37,808 nt of DNA, taken from assembly GCA_028277285.1 (NCBI GenBank), contig JANQGO010000090.1:1-37808 (forward strand). The letters run 5' to 3'. The number at the start of each line of letters is the position of its first letter. The first letter of the stretch is position 1. The position numbers and the translations under genes are program-made. The notes under the pieces were generated by a model. That model worked only from the letters and a program-made list of their open reading frames with translations. It had not been told where the DNA came from and searched no databases. This document shows positions 259-33,232 of the stretch, one piece after another. Origin of the DNA: Alphaproteobacteria bacterium. Lineage in GTDB: Bacteria; Pseudomonadota; Alphaproteobacteria; SP197.

Positions 259-1380
259 CTAAGCGCCGGCGCGCAACTCGTCGACCATGTTGAGGTACTT
301 CTCGCGCCACGGCGATTCGATGGTCTCGAAGTAGACGCCGGTCGCGAGCGCCTCCTCAGGGTTGGCGATGCCGATACCTTCCAGCATCTCCTGATCGACC
401 AGCTCGAAAGATTTCCGGTTGGCGGCGCCGAAGCCATAGGTGTTCAAGAGCGCGACGCCGGCCTCGACCGAGATCACCGCATCCATGAAGTCATAGGCTT
501 TCTGCTCGTCGCCTGCGCTGCCTTCGACCAGACAATAGCCGTCGGTCCAGGTCAGGATGCCTTCGACCGGCACCATGTAGCCGGTCGGCACGCCGTGGTT
601 GGAGAGCGCGGCGGCGGTCGAGTTCCAGCCATAGGCGGCGACAACCTCGCCCGTCGCCATCGCCTGGGCGACATCCGTCTCGCTTTGCCAGTAGTAGCGT
701 AGCAAGGGGCGCTGCTCGACGAGGAACTCCTTAACTTGAGCGATCTCGTCGTCGGTCATGGCGAACGGGTTCTCGATGCCCAGCACCAGGGCGGCCGGGA
801 TGACGATCGAATCCATCTGGTCGTTGGTCGCCAGCCGGCCGGCATAGCGCTCGTCCCACAGGATCTTCCACGTGTTGTTCTCGATGTACTCGGGATCAAC
901 CAGGTCGGGCCGGTAGACGACCGAGGACGTGCCCCAGTCCCACGGCACGTACCAGGTTTGATCGCCGAAGACGGTGCCGTCGACGGTCTTCAAGCCGTCC
1001 AGCATGTCCGGCCAGTTCGACAGACGCGAGGTGTCGATCGGCTTGATGATGCCGGCATCGTGGAACTTCTTGACCAGCGGGTTGGACGGACAGACGAGGT
1101 CCGGGCGAAAACCCGCGTTGACCTTCTGAAACGCCTCGTCGTTGTCGGCATAGAAGCTGAAATCCGGATCGGAACCGTACTTCGCCGTATAGGCCTCATA
1201 AAACTCCGGCAGCTCATAGCCGCTCCAGGTAAAGACCGTGAGGTCGCCTGCCGCCGCGGCCGGGCGGCGCAGCACCGGCATGGAGACGGAGGCCAGACCG
1301 ACCGCCGACATGGCGGTCATGATGTCGCGCCGGCTCAGCTTGCCGTCGGCGAGGTCACGCAAGAACTGTTTGGTGTCCAT
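259..1380 (-). CDS. ABC transporter substrate-binding protein, PotD/spermidine-putrescine type, Tat-signal-like N-terminus
   Basis: 373-aa ORF; N-terminal KLSRRDIMTAMSAVGLASV twin-arginine-like signal; polyamine-binding-like body (LTVFTWSGYELPEFYEAY, VPWDWGTSSVVYRPDLV). Confidence 0.85.
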   Translation of the reverse strand: MDTKQFLRDLADGKLSRRDIMTAMSAVGLASVSMPVLRRPAAAAGDLTVFTWSGYELPEFYEAYTAKYGSDPDFSFYADNDEAFQKVNAGFRPDLVCPSNPLVKKFHDAGIIKPIDTSRLSNWPDMLDGLKTVDGTVFGDQTWYVPWDWGTSSVVYRPDLVDPEYIENNTWKILWDERYAGRLATNDQMDSIVIPAALVLGIENPFAMTDDEIAQVKEFLVEQRPLLRYYWQSETDVAQAMATGEVVAAYGWNSTAAALSNHGVPTGYMVPVEGILTWTDGYCLVEGSAGDEQKAYDFMDAVISVEAGVALLNTYGFGAANRKSFELVDQEMLEGIGIANPEEALATGVYFETIESPWREKYLNMVDELRAGA

Positions 1381-1488
1381 GGTCGGGGTCCCCCTGCTCT
1401 TATGAAGAAGTCAGTTAGACTAACAAGTTGGGATGGCGCCGCAAACCACACGTTTCGGTGACCCCGGTCACCATGTGCGAGGCCGGGC

Positions 1489-2289
1489 TCAGTCCAGGCC
1501 GTATGCCGCCAACAGGTCGGGCCATACGTCGACCCAGCAGCAGTTATGGGCCATGCCGTCGACCACGACGATCTCCGTCAGGGCGTCGTCGGGCATGCGT
1601 GCCAGATAGGCTTCGGCGACGACCACCGGCACGTTCGTATCGTCGGCACCGACGAAGTGGACCTGCGGCACCGCCGCAAGTTCGGCGGCGACACTGGCGG
1701 CGTTCAACGAGTCCCTGAGGCGCGAGATGCCGTGAAACGTGGTCCATGCCTCATGGTCCAGGTTCGCGGCAACCGTAACGATTTCCGCGACGTCATCACG
1801 GTTCGCGGCGACCAGCGCGGCGATCACGCCACCGCCGGAGTAGCCGAACAAGCGGACCTGCTCGCTTCGGGTCGTTCTGACGAAGTAGTCGACCATCAGG
1901 TCCATCGAGGCCACGACCTCCGGCGCGTAGCGCGCCATGAACCAGTAGTCCGGCGAACATTGTGCAAGCGATTCAGCATCCAGGAACTGGCAGGGCCGCG
2001 CGATGTAGACGCTGTTGGGCGAGGGATCACGCACCGCAAGCTCGAAGGTGCGCGGCACCCGGGGCGTTGGATCGACGGGCGGCTGGGTCGGCGACGGCCA
2101 CGCGGCGCCATCGCCGCCGATATAGATGGCGAGCGTCTGGTCGGCAGGATCGGTGATCCGGCTATAGGCGGTCAGCAGAAAGTCGCCGGCCTGCACGCGA
2201 TGGTACTTCCAGCCGTTCGTCTCCGCGAGCCGCGTCGCGGCGACCCGGCCGTCCTCGTCGGCTATGGCGCTGTCCGGCGCGATAAGCAC
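1489..2289 (-). CDS. alpha/beta hydrolase-like exported protein (start uncertain, probably upstream of 2289)
   Basis: 266-aa ORF with GYSGGG nucleophile elbow (LFGYSGGGVIAALVA) and C-terminal GMAHNCCW; a hydrophobic stretch before residue 1 suggests an N-terminal signal beginning upstream. Confidence 0.65.
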   Translation of the reverse strand: MLIAPDSAIADEDGRVAATRLAETNGWKYHRVQAGDFLLTAYSRITDPADQTLAIYIGGDGAAWPSPTQPPVDPTPRVPRTFELAVRDPSPNSVYIARPCQFLDAESLAQCSPDYWFMARYAPEVVASMDLMVDYFVRTTRSEQVRLFGYSGGGVIAALVAANRDDVAEIVTVAANLDHEAWTTFHGISRLRDSLNAASVAAELAAVPQVHFVGADDTNVPVVVAEAYLARMPDDALTEIVVVDGMAHNCCWVDVWPDLLAAYGLD

Positions 2290-2324
2290 CAGACAGACGA
2301 GAGCAAGGCGTGCAGATCGGCGAA

Positions 2325-3260
2325 TCAGGGTGCGCCTCTTGGCGGCACGACGCCGGTCGCCTCGACAATCAGGCCGTAGTGTTCCGGCCGGCGGTGGGCG
2401 GCGAAGTTGAAGACGCTGCTCTTCAGGTAGTTGCCCGCGTCCAGGTCGCAGTCAGCGATGATCAACTCGTCTTCCAGCGTCACCGCCTGGGCGGCGATCT
2501 CGCCATTTGGCGAGACGATGGCGCTGCCACCCATCAGATCGAAGCCGTCCTCGCGGCCCGCCTTCGCGATGCAGGCGACCCAGGTCGCGTTCTGATAGGC
2601 ACCCGCCAGCATGGAGAGCGTGTTGTGATAGGCGCGCAGATGCGGCGGCTCGAACGTCTGGCCGTTCAGCGTCGGTGTGTTGTAGCCGATCATCACCAGC
2701 TCGACGCCCTGCAGGCCCAGCGAGCGGAAGGCTTCCGGCCAGCGCCGGTCGTTGCAGATCAGCATGCCCAGCTTGCCGCCCATGACCTCCCATACCGGGA
2801 AGCCCAGATCGCCGACCTCGAAATAGCGTTTCTCCAGATGCTGGAAGTCGCGTTCCGGCTCGTACTCGGCATGACCGGGTAGATGAATCTTGCGGTACTT
2901 GGCGACGATCTCGCCTGCCTTGTCGACCAGGATCGCCGTGTTGAAGCGGTGCTCGCCGGCGATCTCCGCGTAACCCAGATGAAAGCCGATGCCGAGTTCC
3001 TTGGCCGTATCGAACAGCGGCTGGACATCGGCATTGGGCATGGTCGCCTCAAAACAGGCGCCGAGTTCCGCCTCGTCCTCGATCAGCCAGCGCGGAAAGA
3101 ACGTGGTCAGCGCAAGCTCCGGGTAGACAACGAGGGCGCAGCCGCGCCCCGCCGCCTGGCGCATCAGGTCGACCAGCCGCGCCACGGCGGATGCCTTGGT
3201 CTCGGCGCGCTGGATCGGCCCAAGCTGCGCGCCGCCGACCGTCAGAACCCTGGATGCCAT
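2325..3260 (-). CDS. nitrilase-superfamily amidohydrolase, N-carbamoyl-D-amino acid hydrolase type
   Basis: Glu-Lys-Cys triad visible (YPELALT, KYRKIHLPG, MLICNDRRWPE); GYNTPT and NFAAHRRPEHYGLI resemble D-carbamoylases. Confidence 0.88.
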   Translation of the reverse strand: MASRVLTVGGAQLGPIQRAETKASAVARLVDLMRQAAGRGCALVVYPELALTTFFPRWLIEDEAELGACFEATMPNADVQPLFDTAKELGIGFHLGYAEIAGEHRFNTAILVDKAGEIVAKYRKIHLPGHAEYEPERDFQHLEKRYFEVGDLGFPVWEVMGGKLGMLICNDRRWPEAFRSLGLQGVELVMIGYNTPTLNGQTFEPPHLRAYHNTLSMLAGAYQNATWVACIAKAGREDGFDLMGGSAIVSPNGEIAAQAVTLEDELIIADCDLDAGNYLKSSVFNFAAHRRPEHYGLIVEATGVVPPRGAP

Positions 3261-3271
3261 ACCCGTCTCCT

Positions 3272-3955
3272 CTACTGTGCCGCGCGGATCGCGCCGATCG
3301 CCATGGTCGTCGCCGCCTGGGTCGGGTCGATCACCGGAATGCCGAGATCGCCTTCAAGGCCGGCGCGGTATTGCGCCATGCCGGCGCACCCCATGACCAG
3401 CACGTCGCAGCCATGGCCATCGCGCAGTTCGGTGCCGACCTCCGTCATGCGCGCGCGCACCTTGTCGCCTTGATGCAGCTCGGTCACGCCAAGTTCGATC
3501 GCGATATCCGCACCCAGCCGGTCGAGCAGACCCAGTGACGCGATCTGCCGGCGATGACGCGCCACCGACCGCGACAGGATCGAGATGACGCCGAACCGGT
3601 CCCCGCGCGTCAGCGCGGTCGCATAACCGCTCTCGCCGATACCGAAGACGGGCACCCGGCTCGCCTCGCGCGCGGCATGGATGCCGGGGTCGGAAAAACA
3701 CGCGATGACGAAGGCCGACGTCCGGTTCTGCTCACGCTCGACCGTCTCGGTGAGTGGCCCGGTGACCTCGGCGATATGCCGGTCGGTTTCGATGCCGGGC
3801 GGGCCTTCGGCGAGCGTCATGCAGTCGACCACGGGTCCGTCCTCGAAACGCAATCCGTCGAGCGCTGCCGACATGCGCTCCGTGACGTCTTCGCTGCTGT
3901 TGGGATTGATGACCAGAATGCGTTCGCTCATGGAGACCTCATGACGGCCGGACAA
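3272..3955 (-). CDS. Asp/Glu/hydantoin racemase family protein
   Basis: 227-aa ORF with ILVINPNSSEDVTERM start and two catalytic-type Cys regions (ACFSDPG; MGCAGM). The first residues vary with start choice (MSERILVINPNS is an alternative). Confidence 0.87.
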   Translation of the reverse strand: MSGRHEVSMSERILVINPNSSEDVTERMSAALDGLRFEDGPVVDCMTLAEGPPGIETDRHIAEVTGPLTETVEREQNRTSAFVIACFSDPGIHAAREASRVPVFGIGESGYATALTRGDRFGVISILSRSVARHRRQIASLGLLDRLGADIAIELGVTELHQGDKVRARMTEVGTELRDGHGCDVLVMGCAGMAQYRAGLEGDLGIPVIDPTQAATTMAIGAIRAAQ

Positions 3956-5279
3956 AACGGCCGGTGCCGGCGGGCGCCGTCATGGCGTCGCCATCGAAAA
4001 CCTTGGTGCCGCGCAGCCAAACGTCGCCGACGCGGAAGCCGAGTTCGCGACCATGATAGGGCGTCCAAGGCGCGAGTTCACAGTGCAGCTTGTTTTCGTC
4101 CACCGTGTGGCGCTCGTTACGCAGGATGGCGAAGTCCGCGTCGCTGCCGACCCTGATCGCGCCTTTCTGCGGATAAAGCCCGAAATGGCGCGCCGGCGCC
4201 TCGCACAGCATGTCGGCGACGACACTGACGTCATGACCGCGCCGGATCATCGCCTCGTCGGCCATGACCGGAAACAGGCACTCGATACCGGGCGCGCCGG
4301 GCGCGGCCTGAAAGATGTCGTCGTCCGGCTTGCGCTCAAGCGGCCACGAGCAGTGATCCGAGGACACAAAGGCAACCTCGCCATCCAGAATCTTCTGCCA
4401 GATCAACTCCTTCTGGTCGGGCCGGATCGGCGGGTTCACCTTGCCGCGCGCACCCATCTCGATGACGTCGGCCTCGTCGAAGATCAGATAGTGCAGGCAC
4501 GTCTCCGCCGTCGCGTGATAGCCCTGGTCGCGATAGCTGCGCGCCATGTCGAAGCCGCGCGCCAGGGAGGAGTGCACGATATGGGCGCGCGCGCCGGTCG
4601 CCGCCCCGATCTCCAGGATGATGCTGTTGGCGACCAGCTCCGACAGCGGGGGACGCGACGGATGATGTTCATTCGCGCCCTTCTTGCCGGCTTCCTTGAA
4701 CCGCGCGATCGCATCGTCGACGATCTCCTGATCCTCGTTGTGCACGGCGACGGTCAGGCCGGTCTCGGCGATGGCGGCGAAGGCGCGCTCCATCTGGTGA
4801 TGAGGAATGCGCGGGAAGCGCGCGCTGGCGTGATAGGTCGACATCTTGAAAGCACATGCGCCGGCCTCGGTCTGGCGCGCGATCTCGTCGGTATCGACAT
4901 CCGGCTTCACGCCGCCATAAATCGCGACATCGCAATAGGCGACCTTGTCCGCCGTCGCCGCCTTTTCGGCCAACAGCGCGCCCGTCGTCACGGGGTCGGG
5001 CGAATCGAACGGCATATCGACGATGGTCGTCACGCCGCCCGCCGCCGCGCTGCGCGTGAGGTCTTCCAGACCCGAGAAACCGGCGATCGATCCGGCATGG
5101 GTCTGGCCATCGACAATGCCCGGAAAGATGAGGCCGTCGGCGGTAACGTGTTCGCCGGCATCCGGCATCGCGCCCTCGCCGATCGCGGCAATCTTGCCGT
5201 TGGTCACGGCGACCCATCCGTTTTCCTTGATACCGTCGGGCAGCACGAGAGCCCCCGCGATGACCAAGTCGAACCTCAT
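3939..5279 (-). CDS. dihydropyrimidinase/hydantoinase/allantoinase-like cyclic amidohydrolase
   Basis: 446-aa ORF; carbamylated-Lys region ACAFKMSTYH, AVHNEDQE, AHIVHSSLARG, SSDHCSW; usual first HxH is QTH (IVDGQTHAG). Confidence 0.85.
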   Translation of the reverse strand: MRFDLVIAGALVLPDGIKENGWVAVTNGKIAAIGEGAMPDAGEHVTADGLIFPGIVDGQTHAGSIAGFSGLEDLTRSAAAGGVTTIVDMPFDSPDPVTTGALLAEKAATADKVAYCDVAIYGGVKPDVDTDEIARQTEAGACAFKMSTYHASARFPRIPHHQMERAFAAIAETGLTVAVHNEDQEIVDDAIARFKEAGKKGANEHHPSRPPLSELVANSIILEIGAATGARAHIVHSSLARGFDMARSYRDQGYHATAETCLHYLIFDEADVIEMGARGKVNPPIRPDQKELIWQKILDGEVAFVSSDHCSWPLERKPDDDIFQAAPGAPGIECLFPVMADEAMIRRGHDVSVVADMLCEAPARHFGLYPQKGAIRVGSDADFAILRNERHTVDENKLHCELAPWTPYHGRELGFRVGDVWLRGTKVFDGDAMTAPAGTGRFVRPS

Positions 5280-5347
5280 GCTGCTCTCCTCCAGTTAAAA
5301 CCAGCCTAACAGGTCTTTGCCCGTTTCGGCATTAACGGCACATCACA

Positions 5348-6853
5348 CTAGGCCGGCGGCACCATGCGGTGCACGTGATAGGGCCGGCTCGAAAAACAGA
5401 TGCAATGATCGGCGACCAGCGGTTCCAGCGCCAGAACCAGGTCCCGGCGTTCCGCCGTTACCGCGTTGAGCCGTTCCATGGCGCGCTCGACGTCCAGTCT
5501 GAGTTTCTCTTCGTCGATGGTCGTGAACCGCCGGTCCCGGTAGACGAACGTTCCGCCCACCATGACCGACTGCACGGCCGCGCCGTCATCCGCATAGACG
5601 ATCTGATTGACCGGATCGTTCAACGGCACATAGGTGATGTCGGAGAGGTCCAGGAACACGATATCGGCGGCGTAGCCGGCTTCCAGTCGTCCGGTATGGT
5701 CTTGCATCCCGATTGTCCGCGCGCTGCCGGCGGTCGCCATGGTCAGCGCCTCGGCGGACGACACCCACTGCCTGAGGTCATGGGTCATCGCGCGCGAGAC
5801 ATAGGCGGCCAGTCGTGTCGCCTCGAACATGTTCTGGTTATCCGACGAGTTCGACCCGTCGGTCCCGATGCCGACATTGACGCCAGCCTCAACCATCTCG
5901 CGCACGGCGGCGATGCCGGAACCCAGCCGCAGATTGCTGCCCGGGTTGTGCGCGACCGAGGCACCGCGATCGGCCATGCGTTTCATGTCGTCGCTGTCGA
6001 GCCAGACGCCGTGGCCGGCGGTGAAGCGCTCGGTCACGAGGCCGAGGTCATCGAAGTGGGCTAGCAGCGTCTTGCCGTAGTGTCCGTGCCCGGCAAGCGC
6101 CTGCAGTTTCGACTCCGCCATGTGCGTGTGCACCGGACAGGCGAACTCGTCGGCCAGGGTCGCACAGGCGACAAGAAACTCGTCCGTGCAGTGCATGGGG
6201 ATGGTCGGCGCGATTCCGAAACACAGGCGGTCGGTGTCGAACGGCCAGGATTTCAGGAGATCGCGGCAGGCATCGAGGGCGGCCTGGAATGGATCGAGCG
6301 CGAGCTTGTCGACCTCCCGGCGCAAACCCTCCGTCAAGCTGTCGCGCAGACCGGGAACAATGTCATAGAACGACATGTCGGCCATCATCGGCGTGATCAA
6401 CGCGCGCATGCCGATATCGTCATAGGCGCGCGCCACCGCGTGCATGCCGTCGACGGTCGGCCGGGGCTGCTCCCAGGTGAGGTCATAAACGCCGGTCGCG
6501 CCGCGCCGGATCATATCGGCGGCGTTCAACAAAGTCGCCAGATAGCGGTCCTCGTCGTTGCGTCCGCCGCTGATCCACGGCCCCGCGTTCAACAAGAGCT
6601 CCAGCGACCACTGATCGCCGCGGCCCTTGCCAAAGCTGCCGTGACCGTGGGTGTGCGCGTTGATCATGCCGGGCATCATCAGCATGCCGTCGGCGCGATG
6701 TTCTTCAGCGTCCTCGGGTGCGGCCATGCCGGGATCGCCGATCGCGGCAATGCGGCCATCGGCGCCGATCAGCAGGTCACGCAACGGCGCGGCGTGACCG
6801 TCGATATCCAGAAGCCGGCCGCCGCGCAGGACGAGAGGACGTTCAAGGCTCAT
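5348..6853 (-). CDS. amidohydrolase, TRZ/ATZ (chlorohydrolase/cytosine-deaminase-like) family
   Basis: 501-aa ORF; MMPGMINAHTHGHG, VHTHMAES, GHGVWLDSDD, GIGTDGSNSSDNQNMFEATRLA. Confidence 0.88.
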   Translation of the reverse strand: MSLERPLVLRGGRLLDIDGHAAPLRDLLIGADGRIAAIGDPGMAAPEDAEEHRADGMLMMPGMINAHTHGHGSFGKGRGDQWSLELLLNAGPWISGGRNDEDRYLATLLNAADMIRRGATGVYDLTWEQPRPTVDGMHAVARAYDDIGMRALITPMMADMSFYDIVPGLRDSLTEGLRREVDKLALDPFQAALDACRDLLKSWPFDTDRLCFGIAPTIPMHCTDEFLVACATLADEFACPVHTHMAESKLQALAGHGHYGKTLLAHFDDLGLVTERFTAGHGVWLDSDDMKRMADRGASVAHNPGSNLRLGSGIAAVREMVEAGVNVGIGTDGSNSSDNQNMFEATRLAAYVSRAMTHDLRQWVSSAEALTMATAGSARTIGMQDHTGRLEAGYAADIVFLDLSDITYVPLNDPVNQIVYADDGAAVQSVMVGGTFVYRDRRFTTIDEEKLRLDVERAMERLNAVTAERRDLVLALEPLVADHCICFSSRPYHVHRMVPPA

Positions 6854-6857
6854 GCGT

Positions 6858-7811
6858 TCATCCCGCCTGAATCACCTGGGCGAGATAGTCGTCCCAGGTG
6901 TCGTTGGGTTCCCAGCCCAGCGCCTCGCGCGTCGCAGCGATGTCGTAGGCGCTGGCACGCGGGTCGTTGGCATAGAGCGCCGGCTGCTTGATATCGGGCA
7001 GGACGCCGCAGCCGCTCTCCACCGCCTCAAGCGTCGGCAGGCGCGTGCACGTGTCGCTGGACGTGACGAAGTAGACGCCATAGCGCAGGCCGGGCGCGGC
7101 GAGCGCGGCGCGAAACGCGCGCGCGACATCGCTGGGCGAGACGAACGCGCGGGTCGGCGACACGCCTTCGCGCAGTTCCCGCCATGCTGCACCCGATGCC
7201 GGCGGCGGCGGTTCCAGACTGTCGGTCCGGGCCACGATCTCGGCCATGCTGTAGACGATGTCGGCTTGCGCCACGAGACAGGGCCGCAGGCAGATCACCT
7301 CCAGCTTGCCGCGTTTCACGATACCCTGCGCCAGTAACTCGATGGTGCGTTTGCTGAGGCCATAAGCGCCCGTCGGCACCGCGGGATGCGCAACGTCGAC
7401 CGGCAAATAGGCCGGCGGGTTGTCGGCCGACAGGCCCACGGCCGCGGTGCTGGAGCAGATGACCGCGCGCTCCAGGCCCGATTCTTCGGCGGCCTGCAGC
7501 ACGTTCCAGGTGCCCTGGATGTTGACCTTGATGTAGTCCTCTTCGTTGTCGGCGACGCCATCGTCCAGTGCCGCCAGGTGGACCACCGCCTGCTGGTTCT
7601 TGAGGGCGGCGGTGACCGCATCGATGTCGAGTACATCGACGTTCGCAAACGCGAAACCTTCGTCGGCGGGCGGCGCGATGTCCATCACCAGAACCTCGGC
7701 ATCGCGGGCGAGCTCGCGCACGACGAAGCGCCCGAGCAAACCGCTGCCGCCGGTGACGCAGACGCGGTCGAAAGGGAGCGACGGATCAGACAAGGTCAAG
7801 CTCCTCGGCAA
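6858..7811 (-). CDS. NAD-dependent epimerase/dehydratase (extended SDR)
   Basis: VCVTGGSGLLGRFVVREL nucleotide-binding motif, YGLSK catalytic motif. Confidence 0.88.
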   Translation of the reverse strand: MPRSLTLSDPSLPFDRVCVTGGSGLLGRFVVRELARDAEVLVMDIAPPADEGFAFANVDVLDIDAVTAALKNQQAVVHLAALDDGVADNEEDYIKVNIQGTWNVLQAAEESGLERAVICSSTAAVGLSADNPPAYLPVDVAHPAVPTGAYGLSKRTIELLAQGIVKRGKLEVICLRPCLVAQADIVYSMAEIVARTDSLEPPPPASGAAWRELREGVSPTRAFVSPSDVARAFRAALAAPGLRYGVYFVTSSDTCTRLPTLEAVESGCGVLPDIKQPALYANDPRASAYDIAATREALGWEPNDTWDDYLAQVIQAG

Positions 7812-8901
7812 CGCGCCGGCGGAACCGCGCCTGTGAAATCTCCCAGCCGGGTGCAGGCGGCGGCAGGCCGCGCGCCGCCGGCGAATGCATCGTCGCCTGC
7901 AGATCGGCGAGCACGTCGAAGTCCTGCCGGTTGATGGCGTCCCACGCCTGATGGGTCATGCGGCGGCCTTCTTCGAGATCGGGATCATCGGCATCGTCGC
8001 CCAGGTAATAGAAACTCATCAGCTCGCGCGTGCGCGTCGGCGAGACCGGCTCGACCCGGAAGAACATGACGTGCTCGGGCACGAACTCCAAGAGCGTGTT
8101 GGGGAAGAGCATCGAGATATCCTGGTTCTTAAGCTGCTCGCCCTCGAAGCCGGGAAATGTATGGAACCCGGAATCGCCCTTGTTCTTGTCGGCGGCGCCG
8201 GAGAGGTAATGCACGCCGAAGACCCGGCCGGCCACATCGAAGTCGACGAAGTTCCGCGCCGCCTCGATCGGTCCGAGCTGCGTATGGATGAACGGCAGGT
8301 GATAGGTGTCGAGGTAGTTCTCGATGATAAGTTTCCAGTTGACCTCGAGCTCATAGGAGAGCGCGCCGCCGAACCGCAGCAGCGACAGATCCGCATGGGA
8401 CCAGCGCCGCGCCAATGGTTCGATGTGCTGCTCGAAGTCCGGACCGTCATCGTCGAGGCTCAGAAAGACTTGGTCGCACCAGACCGCCGAGCGCACAGGC
8501 TTGAGACTAAAGCCATCCTTTTCGAAATCCGCCGGCGCGGTGCCGTCTTCGGGCTCCCAGTGGGGTGTCGAGCGCAACGCGCCGTCCAGGCCATAGGCCC
8601 AACCGTGATAGGGACAGGTCACCACCGCCTTGGAATTGCAGGCCTCGCGCACGAGGCGCGCGCCGCGATGACGGCAGACGTTGTGGAACGCGGCGATACC
8701 ACCTGACCGTTGGCGCACCAGAACCAGCGGCAGTCCGGCCAACGTGATCGGGTGGCAGTCGCCGGCGTTGGGCAACTGATGACCGCTTGCGACGTGAACC
8801 CACGACTTCGAAAACAGCTTCTCGTTTTCCAGAGCGGCGAAGGCGTCGCTGCAATAGGCGTCGAGCGGCAATTCGACCGGTTGAAAGCCAAGCGGCGTCA
8901 T
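7786..8901 (-). CDS. Rieske [2Fe-2S] aromatic-ring-hydroxylating/demethylating oxygenase alpha subunit
   Basis: Rieske CRHRGARLVREACNSKAVVTCPYHGW; mononuclear iron motif NYLDTYHLPFIH. Confidence 0.9.
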   Translation of the reverse strand: MTPLGFQPVELPLDAYCSDAFAALENEKLFSKSWVHVASGHQLPNAGDCHPITLAGLPLVLVRQRSGGIAAFHNVCRHRGARLVREACNSKAVVTCPYHGWAYGLDGALRSTPHWEPEDGTAPADFEKDGFSLKPVRSAVWCDQVFLSLDDDGPDFEQHIEPLARRWSHADLSLLRFGGALSYELEVNWKLIIENYLDTYHLPFIHTQLGPIEAARNFVDFDVAGRVFGVHYLSGAADKNKGDSGFHTFPGFEGEQLKNQDISMLFPNTLLEFVPEHVMFFRVEPVSPTRTRELMSFYYLGDDADDPDLEEGRRMTHQAWDAINRQDFDVLADLQATMHSPAARGLPPPAPGWEISQARFRRRVAEELDLV

Positions 8902-11048
8902 GGGCCCCCAGCGACTTGCGGTTTTCGAGCACGCGGCACAACGACCGCGTCAACCGCCATGGTCTTTTCCGGACCGGCGATCAACGGATTGACGTCGAGT
9001 TCGGCGATCAAATCGCCATAGGCCATGGCCAGGCGCGACAGCGCGGTGAGGCTATGGCTTAGCCAGTCCAGTTCCACCGGCGGGGCGCCGCGCACGCCGG
9101 CCAGGAGACGGCTTACCTTGAGGCGGGAGAGCGCGCGCCTGGCATCGGCCATGTCGAAAGGCGGCAGAAGGAAGACACGGTCTTCCATCACCTCGATCAG
9201 CACGCCGCCGGCAGCGACCATGACCAGCGGCCCGAACTGCGGATCGTTGACGATGCCGGCGGCAAGCTCGACGCCCTTGGGCGCCATCTCGGCGATCAGC
9301 ACGCGCTCGCCGAGCCGGCCGGCGAGGTCGTCATAGGTCCGGCCGACCGCCTCGTCGCCTTCGACGTTCAGGCGAATGCCGTCGACCTCGGTCTTGTGCA
9401 GGATGCCGGGCGCGGCTGTCTTCATCGCCAGCGGACCGCCGATGTCTTGCGCGAACCGGACGGCTTCGTCGCGGTTGTAAGCGATCCGGCGCTGCGGTGC
9501 GCCCATGCCGAAGGTCGCGACAAGCGCCAGTGCTTCGTCCTCGTCGAACGGCTTGCCGGTCTTCAGGCGCTTGCGCCAGCGTTCGATGCGATCCTTGCCA
9601 ACCGTGTAGTGGTCGGTCTGGGGCTCGGCCTTCAGGCGGTCGCGGTAGTCCATCGCCCGGCGCACGGCCTTCAGGAACGTATGCGAGCCATCGAAGATCG
9701 GGATGCCGGCATCCGCCGCGGCGTCGAGAATGGGTTTGGGCGGTGTACGGCTCCAGTGCTGGCAGATGCCGACCGGCTTTTGCGTGTTGTCGTGAACGGC
9801 CTTGCAGATGTCGACCATCTCGGCCGTGATCGTGTCGGTCATGCCGAGGTCGGAGAACATCATGGCGACCGCCGTATCCGGATCGTCGATCAGCGCCTGC
9901 AGGCAGCCGCCAAAGACCTTGTCCCAGTCTTTGCCCGTGCCCCAGCAGTCGGTCGGGTTGACCGGATCCAGGCCGTACTCCAACAGCCCGGCAAGTTTCG
10001 CCGTCGTTGTCTCGTTGATGTCGGAGAACGGCACGCCTTCGCGGTCGGCAAGGTCGATCAGCATGCCGCGCGCCCCGCCGGAATCCATCGTGCCGGCCAG
10101 ACCCCCATCGGCCAGCGGCCGGTCGAGGGAGAGAAGCTGCGCCGTCGTCGCCAGCTCGTCGAAACTCTCGACGCGCAAGACGCCGTAATGGTCGAACACC
10201 GCCTCATAGGCGGCGTCGTTGCCGGCCATGGCGCCGGAATGGCTCTGCGCCAGGATCGCGCTCTTTTCCGTCCGCCCGACCTTCAAAGCAACCACGGGGA
10301 TGCCGCGATCCCGTGCCTTGCCGAGCGCCGCGCAAAAACCTTCGGGATCACGGACCGTCTCCAGGAACAGCATGATGACGCGAGTCGACTCGAGCTCCAG
10401 CGCGTAGTCGATGTAATCGGCCGCCGTCACCGTCATCTCCTGGCCGGCCGAGACGACGAGGTTGTAGCGCTTGCGCGGGTCGACGAACTGAAGCGTCAGG
10501 AACGCGACGCCGGAATGGGTGATGAAGGTCGCCGCGCCAGGGTCGGGCCATTCATGCATCATCGTCCAGGTCGCGCGCATGCCGGACGTCCGGTTCACCA
10601 CACCCATGCAGTTGGCGCCGCAAATCTTCAGGTCCGCCTCGCGCGCCATGTCGGTGACGCGCTGCTTCAGCTTCGGTTCGCCCGTGTCGCCTTCCAGGTA
10701 ACAGCTGGCGAAGATGGTGGCGGCGCCGACACCCGCCTCGATGACCTCGGCGATGGCCGCCTCCAGCCGGTCGTTGGCGATCGAGATGACCGCGTGATCG
10801 ACCGGCTCGGGTATCTCCGACAGGCGCGGGAAACAGGCATGGCCGTCGATGTCGTCGTGGTTGGGATTGACCGCGTAGACCGTGCCGGTGAACTCCGGAT
10901 TGGCGGCGTTGCGCAGGGTCCACAGACCGAACGAATCCTCGCGCGCCGACGCGCCGACGATTGCCATCGTCTTGGGTTCAAGCAGGGGACGGAGGGGATG
11001 ATCGCTCATGACGGCGGCGAGACTAGCACCGGAATCGCCCCCCGCCAC
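8898..11048 (-). CDS. acetate--CoA ligase (ADP-forming)-like acyl-CoA synthetase; likely start at 11009
   Basis: CoA-binding N-terminus [28 protein letters not shown]-terminal ATP-grasp-like domain ([23 protein letters not shown]). Confidence 0.88.
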
Positions 11049-11167
11049 CCCGATCTTCGGAGCCCATGGGGCCTGATCACGTCCCGATGATCACCGGTCA
11101 CAGCCCTTTCGGGACGGCCACGGCCCAGCTAGACTGCCGCCAGCGACACCGTGTGTGGAGCGCGCTT

Positions 11168-12558
11168 TTGAGTTTTAAGTCAGCTATTCCATCCGTCGAC
11201 CGGCTGCTCGGCCTGCCCGGCTTGCAAGCGCTGGCGGTGAGTCACGGCCGCACGTTGACGACCGATGCGGTGCGCCACGTGCTCGCCGGCCTGCGCGCCA
11301 TGCCGGACGATGCATCACCCGACCTGAGCGACGCGACGCTGGTGCGCCAGGTCACCGAATGCGCGCATCGCCGCGTCGCGCTGTCGTTGCGTCCCGTCTT
11401 CAACCTGACCGGCACCGTGCTGCACACCAATCTCGGCCGCGCGCCCTTGCCCGAAAGCGCGATCGACGCGATGGCGGCGGTCGCGCGTGGCGCCAGCAAC
11501 CTGGAGTACGCCATTGCCGCCGGCAAGCGCGGCGATCGCGATGACCACATCGAGGAACGCCTGTGCCGCCTGACCGGGGCCGAGGCGGCGACCGTCGTCA
11601 ACAACAACGCGGCCGCCGTCCTGCTGGCGTTGAACGCGCTGGCCGCCCGCAAGGAGGTGCCGGTCTCGCGCGGTGAGCTGATCGAGATCGGCGGCGCGTT
11701 CCGCCTGCCCGACATCATGCGCCGCGCCGGCACCCGTCTGGTCGAGGTCGGCACGACAAACCGCACCCACGCCCGCGACTACGAAGGGGCGATCGGCGAG
11801 CGCACCGCACTCTTGATGAAGGTCCACACCAGCAACTACGCGGTCGAAGGTTTCACCGCCGCGGTCGCGGAGTCGGAGCTGGCGGCCATTGCCCATGAAC
11901 ACGGTCTGCCGCTGATGACCGATCTGGGCAGCGGCACGCTGGTCGACCTCACCGCTTACGGCCTGCCCGCCGAACCGACGGTTGGCGGCATGATCGCAGC
12001 CGGTGCGGACCTCGTCACCTTCTCCGGCGACAAGCTGCTCGGTGGACCCCAGGCCGGCCTTATCGTCGGCCGGGCCGACCTGATCGCGAAGCTCAAAAAG
12101 AATCCGATGAAACGCGCCCTGCGCTGCGACAAGGTGACGCTCGCCGCGCTGGAAGCCGTGCTCATCCTCTACGAAGACCCGGACAGCCTACCCGATCGGC
12201 TGCCCGCCTTGCGTCTGCTCACACGTGCGGAAGAAGTCATACGGGCGGACGCCGAGGTCGTGCTGCCGGTCTTGGCGCGAGCCCTCGACGGGCATGCCGA
12301 GGTCGACATCGTCGCGGTCAAGAGCCAGATCGGCAGCGGCGCGTTGCCGGTCGATCTCCTACCCAGCGCGGCCTTGCGGCTGCGCAGCACCGCTTCAAAG
12401 AGACGCCAGGGCCGCGCGCTCAAGGAACTCGCCGCTGCCTTCCGCGGCCTGCCATGCCCGGTGATCGGACGGGTCGGCGACAACGCGCTGATGTTCGACC
12501 TGCGCTGCCTGGACGACAAGGCGGCGTTCACCGCGCAACTCGACCGCCTGGTCCTGCC

Positions 12559-12562
<4 letters not shown>
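11168..12562 (+). CDS. selA: L-seryl-tRNA(Sec) selenium transferase SelA (TTG start proposed at 11168; ORF extends to 11066)
   Basis: [17 protein letters not shown]-terminus; [25 protein letters not shown]-lysine region [19 protein letters not shown]. Confidence 0.95.
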
Positions 12563-14497
<1,935 letters not shown>

Positions 14498-14505
<8 letters not shown>

Positions 14506-15667
14506 GTCCTTTTCCGTCCAGGCACTCGCCGCCGGTTTGCTCGCCTCCTTTGTCGGCTTTGCCAGCTCGTTCGCGGTCGTGCTTCAGGGCCTGACGGCCG
14601 CCGGCGCCAGTCAGGCCGAGGCCGCATCCGGCCTGATCGCGCTCTCCATTTCCATGGGGCTGTGCGCGATCTGGCTCAGTCTAAAATCAAAGCTGCCGAT
14701 CTCGGTCGCCTGGTCGACGCCCGGCGCGGCGTTGCTGGCGACCTCCGGCGCCGTCGAGGGCGGTTTCGCCGCGGCGGTCGGCGCGTTCCTGGTCACCGGC
14801 GTGCTGCTGGTGATCGCCGGCCTGTGGAAACCTCTCGGCCGCTGGGTCGCCGCGATCCCCTCCCCGCTGGCCAACGCGCTTCTGGCCGGCGTGCTGCTCG
14901 GCCTTTGCCTGGCGCCGGTCAAGGCGGTCGCCGAGCTGCCTCTGCTCGCTCTGCCCATCATCGTCGTCTGGGCCGTCATGGCGCGCTTCACCCGTATCTA
15001 TGCGGTGCCCGCCGCCGTCGTCGTGACCGCCGTCATCATCGCCACGACCACCGACATGTCGGCGATGAAGATGAACGCGCTGTGGCCCGATCCGATCCTG
15101 GTCATGCCGGTGTTTTCGCCCGAGGCCATGATCGGCATCGCCCTGCCGCTCTTCATCGTGACCATGGCGTCCCAGAACATCCCGGGCATGGCGGTATTGC
15201 ACGCCAACAGCTATTACCCCAACCCCAGTCCGCTGTTCGCCACCACCGGCCTGTTCAGCCTGTTCTCGGCGCCGTTCGGCGGTCACGCGGTCAATCTGGC
15301 GGCGATCACCGCGGCGCTGTGCGCCGGCGACAACGCCCATGACGATCCGGCGCGGCGTTACTGGGCGGCCGTGGTCGCCGGCATCGGCTATATCTTCTTT
15401 GGGTTGATCGCGGGCGCGGCGACCGCGTTCATCGCCATCGCGCCGCCGCTTCTGATCCAGGCGGTCGCCGGCCTGGCGCTTTTGGGCGCGCTTGGCATGT
15501 CTTTGGTCAACGCGTTCAGCGACGCCAAGGACCGGGAAGCCGCCATCGTGACCTTCCTGGTCACCGCCTCGGGCCTGACGTTCTTCGGCATCAGCGGCGC
15601 GTTCTGGGGTTTGATCGCCGGCGGCGCGGTGATGGCGCTGGCGCGCTGGCGGCGCGGTACGGCGTGA
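14498..15667 (+). CDS. BenE-family (benzoate/H+ symporter-like) membrane transporter
   Basis: 389-aa polytopic protein; SVAWSTPGAALLATSG and TMASQNIPGMAVLHANSYYPNPSPLFATTGLFSLFSAPFGGHAVNLAAITAALC are BenE-like. Confidence 0.85.
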
Positions 15668-15690
15668 GACGAGGCCATGGTCATAGCTAT

Positions 15691-15785
15691 GGAAAGGGGT
15701 CGCATCCGGTGATGCGCCCGGTCTTCAAAACCGGTGAGACGCGTTCGACGGGTCTGGTGGGTTCGACTCCCACCCCTTTCCGCCA
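15691..15785 (+). tRNA. selC: tRNA-Sec, anticodon TCA, encoded CCA end
   Basis: 95 nt; 8-bp acceptor GGAAAGGG/CCCTTTCC, 6-bp D stem CGCATC/GATGCG, anticodon arm CCGGT-CTTCAAA-ACCGG, long variable arm, 5-bp T stem GTGGG-TTCGACT-CCCAC, discriminator G, CCA. The 8+5 architecture is typical of bacterial tRNA-Sec. Confidence 0.97.
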
Positions 15786-15803
15786 CCGCCGCCCGGCGGG
15801 CTC

Positions 15804-18011
15804 ATGACACCTGCGGAACCGGTTACCACGGACATCGTGCTTGTCGGCGGCGGCCACGCCCATGTCGAGGTGGTCCGCCGCTTCGCCATGGAACCCGAGC
15901 CCGGCGCGCGGCTGACCATTGTCGCGCGCGACACCTTCACGCCCTATTCCGGCATGCTGCCGGGCTACCTGGCCGGCCATTACGACCACGCCGCCTGTCA
16001 CATCGACCTGCGCCCGCTCGCGCGGATGGCGCGTGCCCGGCTGATCCATGCGCCGGCCACCGGCCTCGACCCGATCGCGGGTAACATCGCCATCGAGGGA
16101 CGCCCGCCGGTGCCCTATGACCTCGCGTCGATCGACATCGGCTCGGTGCCGACCACGTTGGGCATCGCCGGCGCCGACGACCACGCCATCCCGGTCAAGC
16201 CGGTCGACCGGTTCCTGGCCCGGTGGCAAGGCGTCGAAGCGCGCCTATCGGAGACCAGCGGGCCTTTCCGGCTGACCGTGGTCGGCGGTGGCGCGGGCGG
16301 TGTCGAGGTCGCGCTTTCCCTGCGCCACCGGCTGCGCCGTCACCTCGCCGAACAAGGCGGCGATCCCGACCGCGTTGCCGTCACCGTCGTAACCGACCGC
16401 CATACCGTTCTGCATCAGCATGCCATGCCGGTGCGCCGCGCCATGATCGGCGCACTTGGCAAACGCAACGTCACGATCGTCACCGGCCATAAGGTCGTCG
16501 CCTTCAACACCGACCGCGTCGTCTGCGACCCCGAAAAGGAGATCGTCAGCGACGCCGCCGTACTCGTGACCCACGCGGCCGCCCATCCGTGGCTCAAATC
16601 GACCGGCCTTGATCTGGACGACAGCGGGTTCATCAAGGTCGGCCCGACTTTGCAAGCCGTCTCCCATCCTGCGGTCTTCGCCGCCGGCGATGTCGCCGCG
16701 TTCACCAGCCAGCCATTGGCCAAGAGCGGTGTCTATGCCGTGCGCAAAGGCCCGGTTCTGGCCGAGAACCTGAGGCTTATGGCGCGCGGGTTGCGGCCCC
16801 GGCCCTATCGCCCGCAGGGCCGCACCCTGGCGCTCATCTCGACCGGCGACCAGAACGCCGTGGCGTCCTGGGGTCCGCTCGCGATCGAAGGCGCCTGGGT
16901 ATGGCGCTGGAAGGACCGCATCGACCGGCGCTGGATGGCGGTCTATCAGGACATCGAACCGATGCCCGAGGATCCGACGGATCCCATGCGCTGCGGCGGC
17001 TGCGGCGCCAAGGCGCCGGCGGCGGTGCTGGATCGTGCGCTCGCCCGTCTCGACGTCAAAGCCAACCCGTCGCTCGTCGCCGGACTGGATGCACCGGACG
17101 ATGCCGCCGTTTTCACACCGCCTGCCGGTGAGGTCGCCGTGCAGACGGTCGACCAGTTCCGAGCGCTGGTTGACGACCCCCACCTGTTCGGCCGGCTGAT
17201 GGCGGTGCATGCCCTGGGCGATCTTCATGCCATGGGCGCGACACCGGCGGTGGCGCTGGCACTGGTCGGCCTGCCGTTTGCCGATCCCGCACGCATGGAG
17301 TCGGATCTCGTCCAGGTTCTCGCCGGCGCGCTTCAGGTTCTGAACGAAGAAAACTGCGCGCTCGCCGGCGGCCACACCAGCGAGGCCCAGGAGTTCACCT
17401 TCGGCCTGTCGCTGACCGGCTTTGCCCGCGAAGACGCCCTCTTGACGAAAGGCGGCTTGCGGCCCGGCGACGATCTGATCCTGACCAAACCGCTCGGCAC
17501 CGGCGTCCTATTCGCCGCCGACATGCGCGGCGCGGCCAAGAGCGCCTGGGTCGAGGCGGCGCTCACCTGCATGCTGCAATCGAGCGCGGCGGCCGCGCGC
17601 TGTCTTCAGGCCCACGGCGCAAAGGCGGCGACCGATGTCACCGGCTTCGGTCTGGCCGGTCATTTGCTCGAAATGCTGCGCGCCTCCTCGGCAAGCGCCG
17701 ACCTGTGGCTCGATGCGCTGCCGGTGCTGGACGGAGCACGCGACCTTTTCGCGCGCGGTTTCGCGAGTACGCTGCAGCCCGCCAATGTAGAAACCGCCGC
17801 ACCTGCGCTTGACGACGGCAACGACTCCATCCTGTTCGATCCGCAGACCGCCGGTGGTTTGCTGGCCGGCATCGCGCCCGACAGGAGCACGGCCTGTCTG
17901 AAAGACCTGCACGACGCGGGCTATGGTTCAGCCCGCGTCGTCGGCCGTGTCACCGGCCCGGGTCAGGGCCGTATCGTCATCAAACGTGATAGGTCTCCGG
18001 CACCAGCATGA
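15804..18011 (+). CDS. selD: Fusion protein: N-terminal FAD/NAD(P)-binding pyridine nucleotide-disulfide oxidoreductase + C-terminal selenide, water dikinase SelD
   Basis: 735 aa; TTDIVLVGGGHAHVEVVRRF, TVVGGGAGGVEVALSL, VFAAGDVAAF, then MRCGGCGAKAPAAVL (SelD catalytic Cys/Lys), TVDQFRALVDDPHLFGRLMAVHALGDLHAMGA, ATDVTGFGLAGHLLEM. Confidence 0.95.
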   Translation: MTPAEPVTTDIVLVGGGHAHVEVVRRFAMEPEPGARLTIVARDTFTPYSGMLPGYLAGHYDHAACHIDLRPLARMARARLIHAPATGLDPIAGNIAIEGRPPVPYDLASIDIGSVPTTLGIAGADDHAIPVKPVDRFLARWQGVEARLSETSGPFRLTVVGGGAGGVEVALSLRHRLRRHLAEQGGDPDRVAVTVVTDRHTVLHQHAMPVRRAMIGALGKRNVTIVTGHKVVAFNTDRVVCDPEKEIVSDAAVLVTHAAAHPWLKSTGLDLDDSGFIKVGPTLQAVSHPAVFAAGDVAAFTSQPLAKSGVYAVRKGPVLAENLRLMARGLRPRPYRPQGRTLALISTGDQNAVASWGPLAIEGAWVWRWKDRIDRRWMAVYQDIEPMPEDPTDPMRCGGCGAKAPAAVLDRALARLDVKANPSLVAGLDAPDDAAVFTPPAGEVAVQTVDQFRALVDDPHLFGRLMAVHALGDLHAMGATPAVALALVGLPFADPARMESDLVQVLAGALQVLNEENCALAGGHTSEAQEFTFGLSLTGFAREDALLTKGGLRPGDDLILTKPLGTGVLFAADMRGAAKSAWVEAALTCMLQSSAAAARCLQAHGAKAATDVTGFGLAGHLLEMLRASSASADLWLDALPVLDGARDLFARGFASTLQPANVETAAPALDDGNDSILFDPQTAGGLLAGIAPDRSTACLKDLHDAGYGSARVVGRVTGPGQGRIVIKRDRSPAPA

Positions 18012-19188
18012 AGTCGCCGACGTCGTAGAGCTCGGGATCCTTTTCCTGCAACAGAGCCTTGCGCAGGGATTGCAGCATCTCGGCCAACGACGTCTCGTGC
18101 CACAGCCAGTCAGAGAGTTCCTGCTGGCCCACCGCGCCCGGCCGCGCGGTCGCCGCTTCCATGTAGAACGCCTTCAGGTCCTCCGCCGACAGGCGCAGGG
18201 CATCGGCGCTGCCGACGGTCTTGATCGGGCTCTCGCGGGTATCGCCGGCCAGCCAGCCGTCCAGAAACCGGGCGGCGTCGCTCATGGCTAGACCGCTTAA
18301 GCCAACGGCCGTGCGGCCACGCCGGTCGCGGCCGACCTCGTACCACGGCTGCAACTGGCCGATTTCCGCCAGCACGGCTTCGCGCAGGCCGGTCCGGTCT
18401 TCCGGCGCCGGCGGCTTCGGGAAGCTGACCGGGCAGACCCAGCCATCCATCGCCTCGTCGGCGACCTCTTCCGGCGCGTCTTCGGGGAAGTCCACCAGCA
18501 CGGGTCCTTCAGGTACATCGAACAGGTCGAGCGCCGCCTTCAGCACCTTGGTCTGGAACGCCGCGTCGTTCGGCACCCCGAACGGCCGGCCCAGCGCAAA
18601 CGGCACCCAGAGCGTGCGCGGCGGTCTGAGCTTTTCGGCGTGCTCGCGCACCAGCGCGACGATCACCGTCGCCAGGCCCTCGTCTTCCAGATACTTCGCC
18701 AGTCCGCCAACGGCGCACGTGCAAAGGGGTCAGACGGGGGCCAGAACGACCGTGTTGACGCCGTCGGCTTTCAGGATGCCCGCGAGATCGCGGACCGCCG
18801 GTTCCATCAGTTTCGGGTCGGTCGCGCCCATGAACGAATAATGGAAATCCGCCACCGATCCGATGGCGCCGTCATCCGCCAGCTCGTTCAGCCGATGCAG
18901 CGGGAACGCGATGTTCACGTCCTGATGAAAGCCGGTTCGGTCATGACTGGTCGACACGTGGTCCATGACGACGTCATCGACCTTGTCCGCCGGGATGACC
19001 CGGTAGTCCGCCGCGTCGGCCGCGAACGGCTGATCGCTCTTGAGTTTCAGACCGGCCGAGGAAACCAGCGCAACGCGCCGGTCGCCGGCAGGCGCCGGTT
19101 CTGTCCAGGGTTCCATCTCGATATCCGGTACCGGATGATCGATCAGAAAGTCTCGCATATCGGCGTGGAGATCCGCCAACCTCACCAT
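17980..19188 (-). CDS. Glycine/sarcosine/betaine/D-proline reductase selenoprotein B-like (GrdB/PrdB-like) protein; Sec at codon 153 encoded by in-frame TGA (18730-18732)
   Basis: ORFs 18730..19188 and 17980..18666 share a frame; the join reads ...GILKADGVNTVVLAPV-U-PLCTCAVGGLAKYLEDEGLATVIVALVREHAEK.... The DRTGFHQDVNIAFPLHRLNEL and HYSFMGATDP regions resemble this family; AAGGAG Shine-Dalgarno before ATG 19188; complete sel genes adjacent. Confidence 0.92.
18702..18718 (-). promoter_or_regulatory. Candidate bacterial SECIS hairpin 3' of the Sec UGA
   Basis: Minus-strand RNA GUG-CGCC-GUU-GGCG-GAC: 4-bp CGCC/GGCG stem, 3-nt loop beginning with G, 18 nt after the UGA; extends by 2 bp past a G-G mismatch. 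Confidence 0.6.
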
Positions 19189-19242
19189 TTCGTCACTCCT
19201 TCCCCGATCCGCGCGGCAGCCTCGTGGAGAAGCCCAGGTCTG

Positions 19243-20694
19243 TCAACTCACGGCTTCGCGGGTGGGCAGCATCATCGGCGCCATCTCGTCTGCCGTGCGG
19301 CCCGCCCAGTCGAGTTCCGGCACCCGTTCGAGCATGCGCGCCTGGGCGCGCTGCAGGCGCTCGGACTCCGCGGCAAGATCGATGGTGGTCAGCTCGCCGT
19401 CGCGCACCACCGCCTCGCCGTCGACATAGACGTCGCGCACCGCGCGTTCCGCGGCGACGACCAGCAGGCTGCGAAGCGGCTCGCGAACCGGCATCATCGC
19501 CGGGTGTTCGAGGTTGACGACAACGAAGTCGGCCCGCGCGCCTGGCGCCAGGCGGCCGATATCGTCACGGCGCAGCGCCCTGGCGCCGCCTGTGGTCGCG
19601 GCGTTGAAGATATCGAGATAGTCGAGGTCGGCGACGCTTTCGCCGATGACTCGCGCGGCGACCGCGGCCGTGCGCATCTCCTCCAACATGTTGTGGGGAT
19701 AGGTGTCGGTACCGATCCCCATGTTGACGCCACGCCGGACGTATTCGCCGAAGGTACGCAGCGTAATGCCGCGCCGCGAGAAGACGGTCGGACAGTGGGC
19801 GACGGTTGCGCCACGCTCGGCCATCAGATCGAGATCGCGGTTCGACGACCAGTGCAGCCAGGGATGGTGATCCAGGAAGATGCAGTGGGCGATGATGCTG
19901 CGCTCGTCCAGCACGCCCATGTCGGCCATCCACTCGATCGGCGTCTTGCCATGGCGGCGCTGCATCTCCAGGAACTCGGTCACCGACTGAGCGGCATGGA
20001 TGGTCCACGGCAGGTTGCGTTCGGTCGCATAGGCATGGCTGTCGCGCAGCAGCGACTCGCCGCAGGTATCAACCTGGGACGGCGACAGCATGCCGTCGAG
20101 CCGGCCCGAGGGGTGCTGGCGTGCCAGTTCGATCACCCGGCAGGCGGCGTCGAACCGTTCGCGCCCGGCCTTCTCGTCCCAGTCGTATTGCAGCTTGTAG
20201 CCATCGGACGTGTACCAGCGGGCATCGCGGAAGAACGGCGCGGCGACGGCGCGAATGCCGCTGTCGGCAAGCGCATCCAGCCAGCCGTCGAAGGCCGCCG
20301 ACAGATCGACCACCGTCGTCACGCCCGACAGCAGGAGCTCCGCCAAGGCGACCTTCAGGCATGCCATGCGTCCCTCGTCATCGGCCGGGTCGAAGACCGG
20401 CAGGTGCTCATAGAGCGAGCTGTGCCAAAACCCCGGCGAGTGGGTTTCGTCGGTTACGCCCTTGCGCATGGTTTCGCTGGTCGGATGACTGTGGACGTTG
20501 ATCAGGCCCGGCATCACCATACGCCCGGCCCCGTCGATCTCCGTCTCGGCCGGACCGTCATATCCCTTGCCGACGAAGGTGACGGCGCCACCGGAAAAGG
20601 CGAGGTCGGCATCGCGCAGATAGACATGGTGCGCCTCGGCGGTATCCCAGGCGACCAGCCAATCGATTCCACGGATAACGGTCGTCTCGCTCAT
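19243..20694 (-). CDS. amidohydrolase/deaminase, TRZ/ATZ family
   Basis: 483-aa ORF; MPGLINVHSHPTSE, TIHAAQSVTEFLEM, IIAHCIFLDHH, GIGTDTYPHNMLEEMRTAA. Confidence 0.87.
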   Translation of the reverse strand: MSETTVIRGIDWLVAWDTAEAHHVYLRDADLAFSGGAVTFVGKGYDGPAETEIDGAGRMVMPGLINVHSHPTSETMRKGVTDETHSPGFWHSSLYEHLPVFDPADDEGRMACLKVALAELLLSGVTTVVDLSAAFDGWLDALADSGIRAVAAPFFRDARWYTSDGYKLQYDWDEKAGRERFDAACRVIELARQHPSGRLDGMLSPSQVDTCGESLLRDSHAYATERNLPWTIHAAQSVTEFLEMQRRHGKTPIEWMADMGVLDERSIIAHCIFLDHHPWLHWSSNRDLDLMAERGATVAHCPTVFSRRGITLRTFGEYVRRGVNMGIGTDTYPHNMLEEMRTAAVAARVIGESVADLDYLDIFNAATTGGARALRRDDIGRLAPGARADFVVVNLEHPAMMPVREPLRSLLVVAAERAVRDVYVDGEAVVRDGELTTIDLAAESERLQRAQARMLERVPELDWAGRTADEMAPMMLPTREAVS

Positions 20695-32071: not shown

Positions 32072-32165
32072 GGGACGGCGGGCGCGACACGGTCAATCGG
32101 CGGTTGGGCGACTCGTGGCCGCTTGCTAGCATCGCTGGCGAGGGATCATCTTAAGGAGGCCGGCC

Positions 32166-33128: not shown

Positions 33129-33141
33129 TCTAGGCGCTTCA

Positions 33142-33210
33142 CCGGCCCACTCCCCCGCCCGGCCACCCTGAGGATACTGCCATGGGTGGCCGGGCGGGGG
33201 AGTGGGCCGG
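33142..33210. terminator. 27-bp perfect inverted repeat with 15-nt loop between convergent genes; probable bidirectional terminator or other cruciform element
   Basis: CCGGCCCACTCCCCCGCCCGGCCACCC (33142-33168) and its exact reverse complement (33184-33210). Confidence 0.75.
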
Positions 33211-33232
33211 CGACGGCACGGCCTGCAAATCA

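Follow-up and report, generated by a model that had tools for sequence, protein, structure and literature searches.

Background

Hydantoin-utilisation (hyu) clusters of Agrobacterium, Arthrobacter and Pseudomonas combine a racemase, a hydantoinase and a carbamoylase. Hydantoinases and D-carbamoylases have industrial uses while their natural substrates, to our knowledge, are largely unknown. A related logic is found in the creatinine deaminase/N-methylhydantoin route, where a cyclic guanidine is deaminated to a hydantoin, followed by ring opening and decarbamoylation. Here we describe a hydantoin-type gene set in an alphaproteobacterial genome, located at positions 259-11048 of the window (the whole 37,808-nucleotide stretch of contig JANQGO010000090.1 that was analysed). 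Nine minus-strand open reading frames (ORFs) follow one another with overlaps or short gaps throughout: an acyl-CoA synthetase (ACS), a Rieske oxygenase, an SDR epimerase, an ATZ/TRZ amidohydrolase (ATZ), a cyclic amidohydrolase (HYD), a racemase (RAC), a carbamoylase (CARB), an alpha/beta hydrolase (ABH) and a binding protein (SBP). An earlier note on this DNA had listed these genes in this order, divergent from the sel operon; all the ORFs are present and Pfam, NCBIfam and PDB searches support every name.

On balance, we favour the reading that the run contains a conserved catabolic cassette for an exogenous N-heterocycle, in which ATZ would supply a 5-substituted hydantoin and the HYD-RAC-CARB triad would convert it to a D-amino acid, with a boundary that excludes ACS and the sel genes. 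The gene set is a variant of hydantoin-utilisation clusters not previously described in the open-licence literature searched, where no paper describing it was found.

Conservation and boundaries of the cassette

Orthologous neighbourhoods were compared in 12 further genomes from the alphaproteobacterial family of the window (hereafter, G-labels denote genomes and L-labels loci, G000 being the draft genome that carries the window, with 5.26 Mb in 497 contigs and 7% contamination). As the neighbourhood scan using the Rieske query gave mostly other Rieske genes, the ATZ, HYD and CARB queries were used instead; G000 (5.3 Mb) has 41 matches to the Rieske oxygenase alpha subunit, and other family members have dozens too. 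The set proved to be conserved beyond the window: a core SDR-ATZ-HYD-RAC-CARB-ABH was found in several genera of the family. The same gene order recurs in these other genera at protein identities of 53-79% (43-53% for ABH), which argues that it is not due to chance. The SDR is syntenic in 12 family genomes, window counted, and the SBP gene was seen in three (window, G009 and G001).

The order Rieske-SDR-ATZ is found in 8 genomes (G000, G001, G002, G006, G009, G012, G013 and G015); where the contig is long enough, HYD, RAC, CARB and the rest follow. Four genomes (G007, G008, G010 and G011, the cassette of G010 being split over two contigs) have SDR-ATZ-HYD-RAC-CARB-ABH without Rieske. From these comparisons the oxygenase, whose CxH/CxxH and ENxxDxYHxxxxH motifs are kept in 8/8 orthologues, is read as a lineage-specific accessory of the cassette. 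Its place in the operon, proposed in the earlier note, thus stands for the window but fails for the four cassettes that lack it, and in relatives a LysR or glycosyltransferase gene mostly lies between Rieske and ACS.

The proximal boundary was deduced from G003, which lacks the cassette: there SelDf-SelB-SelA and ACS are followed, after about 0.2 kb, by yaaA. In G001, G008, G009, G010, G011 and G015, yaaA lies just past the distal end of the cassette. The empty site and the position of yaaA together place the cassette between ACS and yaaA, with ACS and the sel genes as backbone. ACS is therefore probably a neighbouring backbone gene outside the cassette, since it stands beside selA without a cassette in G003 (L252), and the CoA ligase loses ground as a pathway member. 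Between genera, the cassette proteins show identities similar to those of SelA and ACS, consistent with vertical descent of the cassette, probably with loss in G003.

These results also bear on the idea that all nine genes, Rieske and CoA synthetase included, form one dedicated long pathway, as the earlier note suggested. The 4-nt overlap of ACS and Rieske at 8898-8901 makes co-transcription possible and ACS adjoins the cassette in those family genomes whose contig shows it, but ACS occurs without the cassette in G003, four cassettes have no Rieske gene and other genes intervene in relatives, so that we regard this idea as unlikely. In G001, G002, G006 and G013, ACS and Rieske are separated by a LysR gene that is absent from the window; several genomes have a family-2 glycosyltransferase gene at the same junction. 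In the sister-genome locus L118, the LysR gene occupies positions 7850-8833, where the window has the 4-nt overlap.

The ATZ/TRZ amidohydrolase and its genomic partners

Residues H67, H69, H244, E247, H281 and D332 of ATZ are invariant in 11/11 aligned homologues. ATZ reaches no equivalog cutoff of the named ATZ/TRZ deaminases (best 252.9 against 522) and stands as a subfamily of its own, marked within the family of the window by the motifs HTHGHG and G(T/S)DGSNSSDNQNM. Relatives outside this family (47-55% identity) were detected in 18 of 332 sampled alphaproteobacterial genomes (~5%), plus G342. We read 19 such out-family loci, from about 14 families and chosen through similarity matches. 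An NMT1-type ABC transporter is encoded at 9 or 10 of them, and hydantoin-type genes (hydantoinase or carbamoylase) at 5. The ATZ relative stands beside CARB and HYD in L255; beside a D-hydantoinase (562 bits, above the cutoff of 393), a D-carbamoylase and two hydantase-family amidases in L257; beside a hydantase amidase (418 against a cutoff of 204) in L263; beside hydantoinase, CARB and RAC in L265; and beside M20 and hydantoinase genes in L267.

In many cases the hydantoinases and carbamoylases at these loci are not orthologues of those in the window, and the five loci are scattered over the ATZ tree, which argues for a functional link between ATZ and hydantoin genes rather than hitch-hiking. 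A D-carbamoylase homologue is present at 3 of the 19 loci; a rough binomial estimate puts the probability of this by chance at about 1e-6. From this recurrent association we infer that ATZ may make the cyclic ureide that hydantoinases open.

The predicted hydantoin-processing triad and possible substrates

The best family of HYD is ErtD (hydantoin-5-propionate amidohydrolase), although both cutoffs are missed (515/600 and 381/650 bits); on the ErtD profile, an Ert-cluster gene in L172 scores 781. HYD likewise stays below the cutoffs for D-hydantoinase (TIGR02033, 220.8 against 393 bits) and allantoinase (294.4 against 357.85). Its metal ligands are Q59-x-H61, with Gln replacing the first His, and K145, H180, H236 and D308, which are kept. 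The codon of this Gln lies at 5103-5105 of the window (minus strand); the residue is also Gln in most ErtD and ErtD-like proteins (L171-L177, L256) and His in L255 and L229. In the tree, the HYD clade of the family (support 100/99) is separate from the ErtD clade (98/99) and loosely grouped (83/98) with homologues from L256, L174/L227 and L255 that adjoin racemases and/or D-carbamoylases. The contexts of these homologues are RAC-HYD in L174, CARB-HYD in L255 and CARB-RAC-HYD in L256, where the surroundings (8400-19898) hint at a glutamate-type side chain. HYD is thus predicted to be an ErtD-like ring opener from a sister clade of ErtD, not a classic hydantoinase.

RAC carries ACFSDP and GCAG cysteine motifs in all orthologues; its nearest PDB entry is 3qvj. 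CARB keeps the Glu/Lys/Cys motifs and CNDRR, a Glu-Lys-Cys triad being described for D-carbamoylase (PMC11503299), and is on homology and motif a predicted D-type carbamoylase. The racemase-hydantoinase-carbamoylase set that the earlier note had recognised is accordingly conserved as a racemase, a D-carbamoylase and a cyclic amidohydrolase, with ATZ added, but its ring opener is of the ErtD-like kind.

The resemblance to ErtD raises the alternative that the genes degrade ergothioneine or hydantoin-5-propionate, with HYD an ErtD and glutamate the product. Besides the family match, HYD shares its Gln-x-His metal motif with genuine Ert-cluster enzymes, an S-Me-THD/DUF917 protein is encoded at 21756-22841 of the window and HYD of L256 lies near a gamma-glutamyltranspeptidase, an enolase-superfamily protein and an N-formylglutamate amidohydrolase. 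However, HYD misses both ErtD cutoffs and belongs to a separate clade; no ergothionase (trimethylamine lyase) match was found in G000 at E<=1e-20, absence from a draft genome not being proof; the DUF917 protein, 10 kb away, reaches 107/450 and 73/440 bits against the thiohydantoin desulfurase cutoffs; and the carbamoylase is a CN_hydrolase of D-type, not M20 ErtE. Ergothioneine as the substrate is therefore disfavoured, and we give this alternative little credence, slightly less than the nine-gene pathway. The thiourocanate hydratase query gave one 51% match in G000, and likewise in relatives, that could be an ordinary urocanase. Genuine Ert clusters occur in other alphaproteobacteria (L171-L173, L175-L177 and L272), several of them combining ergothionase, thiourocanate hydratase, DUF917 desulfurase and M20 genes.

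A creatinine-like route, in which ATZ would be a creatinine-type deaminase, HYD would open N-methylhydantoin and CARB would hydrolyse N-carbamoylsarcosine, follows the same reaction logic, and creatininase-family genes adjoin ATZ in L255 and L263. This family is functionally broad, though, and CARB is of D-amino-acid type. N-methylhydantoin moreover has no stereocentre and would make a racemase needless, whereas RAC is present in every cassette whose contig extends there, which leaves this route improbable. Least probable of all is an allantoin/purine route (RAC an allantoin racemase, HYD an allantoinase and ATZ a purine deaminase), for although RAC resembles hydantoin and allantoin racemases, HYD scores 294 against allantoinase and a xanthine/uracil-type permease is encoded at 33233-34594 of the window, HYD remains under the allantoinase cutoff (358) and scores better to ErtD, no allantoate amidohydrolase lies within the cassette and a D-carbamoylase does not fit.

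Proposed pathway

Returning to the cassette for an exogenous N-heterocycle, secreted ABH and the binding protein may serve to release the compound or to capture it. Its side chain might then be trimmed by the SDR, together with Rieske where present, and ATZ would exchange a ring amino group for a carbonyl. The conversion of a 2-amino-imidazol-4-one (a cyclic guanidine) to a hydantoin would be the simplest chemistry for this step, a suggestion we make tentatively. Homology supports the last three steps: RAC would equilibrate the 5-substituted hydantoin, ErtD-like HYD would open it to an N-carbamoyl-amino acid and CARB would release a D-amino acid, CO2 and NH3. The order of the reactions, the deamination, the D-amino acid product and the roles of SDR, Rieske, ABH and SBP are our inference from the gene set.

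ABH orthologues begin with signal peptides; the AlphaFold2 (AF2) model of ABH (pLDDT 71, middling) matches only generic esterase folds. SBP matches putrescine-binding PDB entries at about 80 bits and has orthologues in G009 (76%) and G001 (98%); no permease gene adjoins it. Of the substrate classes considered in the earlier note, the set points to an N-heterocycle, but a quaternary amine finds no specific support, the Rieske protein resembling GbcA only distantly (130.9 bits against a cutoff of 670).

Several observations weigh against the reading that we favour. Hydantoin-type genes lie near just 5 of the 19 out-family ATZ loci, and ATZ may serve several pathways. The chance estimate for the D-carbamoylase neighbours is approximate, the loci being picked via similarity matches and the size of the neighbourhood being arbitrary. 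Neither SDR nor ABH was seen as a shared neighbour at any of the 19. For ATZ, SDR, Rieske and ABH, there is no characterised relative close enough to fix the substrate. Finally, the exclusion of ACS is based on a single genome, G003, and G000 is a contaminated draft, though G001 agrees with it.

It is possible, if doubtful, that the cassette represents a new pathway in which a natural 2-amino-imidazolone is deaminated by ATZ to a chiral hydantoin, then converted by HYD, RAC and CARB to a D-amino acid. Such a pathway would give D-carbamoylases a natural role. The conserved cassette has an upstream amidohydrolase of its own, found again beside several hydantoinase families; this narrows the natural substrate to a chiral-hydantoin precursor, and the idea becomes testable with a few purified enzymes.

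Gene boundaries and neighbouring features

The nine genes are listed in Table 1. Gaps are of 4 nt (SDR-ATZ), 11 nt (RAC-CARB), 35 nt (CARB-ABH), 68 nt (ATZ-HYD) and 108 nt (ABH-SBP). The listed starts of ACS and RAC are probably too far upstream. ACS homologues begin at an internal ATG; the listed starts of ACS and selA lie 17 nt apart, and the true gap is thus probably larger. RAC is similarly shortened by its homologues. For ABH, the signal-peptide-like extension is in frame upstream of the listed GTG.

Table 1. The nine minus-strand genes, with window coordinates
Feature	Position	Strand	Evidence and remarks
ADP-forming acyl-CoA synthetase (ACS)	8898..11048	-	ATP-grasp_5 + Succ_CoA_lig + CoA_binding_2; likely start near 11009
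Rieske non-haem iron oxygenase alpha subunit	7786..8901	-	Rieske + Ring_hydroxyl_A
NAD-dependent epimerase/dehydratase-type SDR	6858..7811	-	PF01370 1e-28; GGSGxxG and YGxxK
ATZ/TRZ-type amidohydrolase (ATZ), predicted aminohydrolase/deaminase	5348..6853	-	Amidohydro_1 2e-56
ErtD-like cyclic amidohydrolase (HYD), predicted hydantoin ring opening	3939..5279	-	NF058538 515 bits vs cutoff 600; metal motifs; tree
Asp/Glu/hydantoin racemase (RAC)	3272..3955	-	PF01177 2e-56; likely start near 3931
Predicted N-carbamoyl-D-amino acid hydrolase (CARB)	2325..3260	-	PDB 6lei, 413 bits, E 7e-123
Secreted alpha/beta hydrolase (ABH)	1489..2289	-	Below Pfam gathering; signal-peptide-like upstream extension
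PotD/PotF-like periplasmic binding protein (SBP)	259..1380	-	SBP_bac_8 2e-21; SRRD Tat-like signal

Divergent from the nine genes, positions 11066-18011 hold in one run selA, selB, a BenE-type transporter gene and a SelD fusion, the last two with tRNA-Sec between them. No support was found for a selenium dependence of the cassette, since SelB occurs without ATZ in G003 and ATZ without a SelB match in G005; the sel genes simply lie alongside it. A second ATZ/TRZ-superfamily amidohydrolase, chlorohydrolase-like (PRK06151, 380 against 416 bits), is encoded at 19243-20694 (minus strand); it adjoins a prolyl iminopeptidase and the DUF917 protein (plus strand), and a similar group exists in G001 (L119). 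Further on, positions 30452-34594 encode an M20-like amidase, an agmatinase-family ureohydrolase and the xanthine/uracil-type permease, beside a dipeptide ABC transporter.

Comparison with known systems

The cassette resembles hyu clusters in uniting a racemase, a D-carbamoylase and a cyclic amidohydrolase in one operon, and the same final chemistry would be expected. Both the D-type carbamoylase (Glu-Lys-Cys, CNDRR) and a racemase with two catalytic cysteines are present, but a hydantoinase of the D-hydantoinase/dihydropyrimidinase family is not, its place being taken by the ErtD-like protein (220.8 bits against the D-hydantoinase cutoff of 393). ATZ and SDR are extra, and Rieske is optional.

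With Ert ergothioneine clusters, the cassette shares a ring opener from a clade near ErtD, 44-47% identical and with the same Gln-x-His motif. It differs in having a D-carbamoylase and a racemase in place of M20 ErtE, in the HYD score below the family cutoff and in the lack of an ergothionase match in G000 at the threshold given above.

ATZ shares superfamily and metal residues with the ATZ/TRZ aminohydrolases (5'-deoxyadenosine, S-adenosylhomocysteine/methylthioadenosine (SAH/MTA) and 8-oxoguanine deaminases, triazine hydrolases), whose common chemistry is the hydrolytic removal of ring substituents from N-heterocycles, while as its own subfamily it scores roughly half the best equivalog cutoff. 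Finally, the chemistry proposed for the cassette follows the sequence of deamination, ring opening and decarbamoylation of the creatinine deaminase route; the ring opener of that route is an ATP-dependent amidohydrolase and no racemase takes part, and the cassette differs in both respects.

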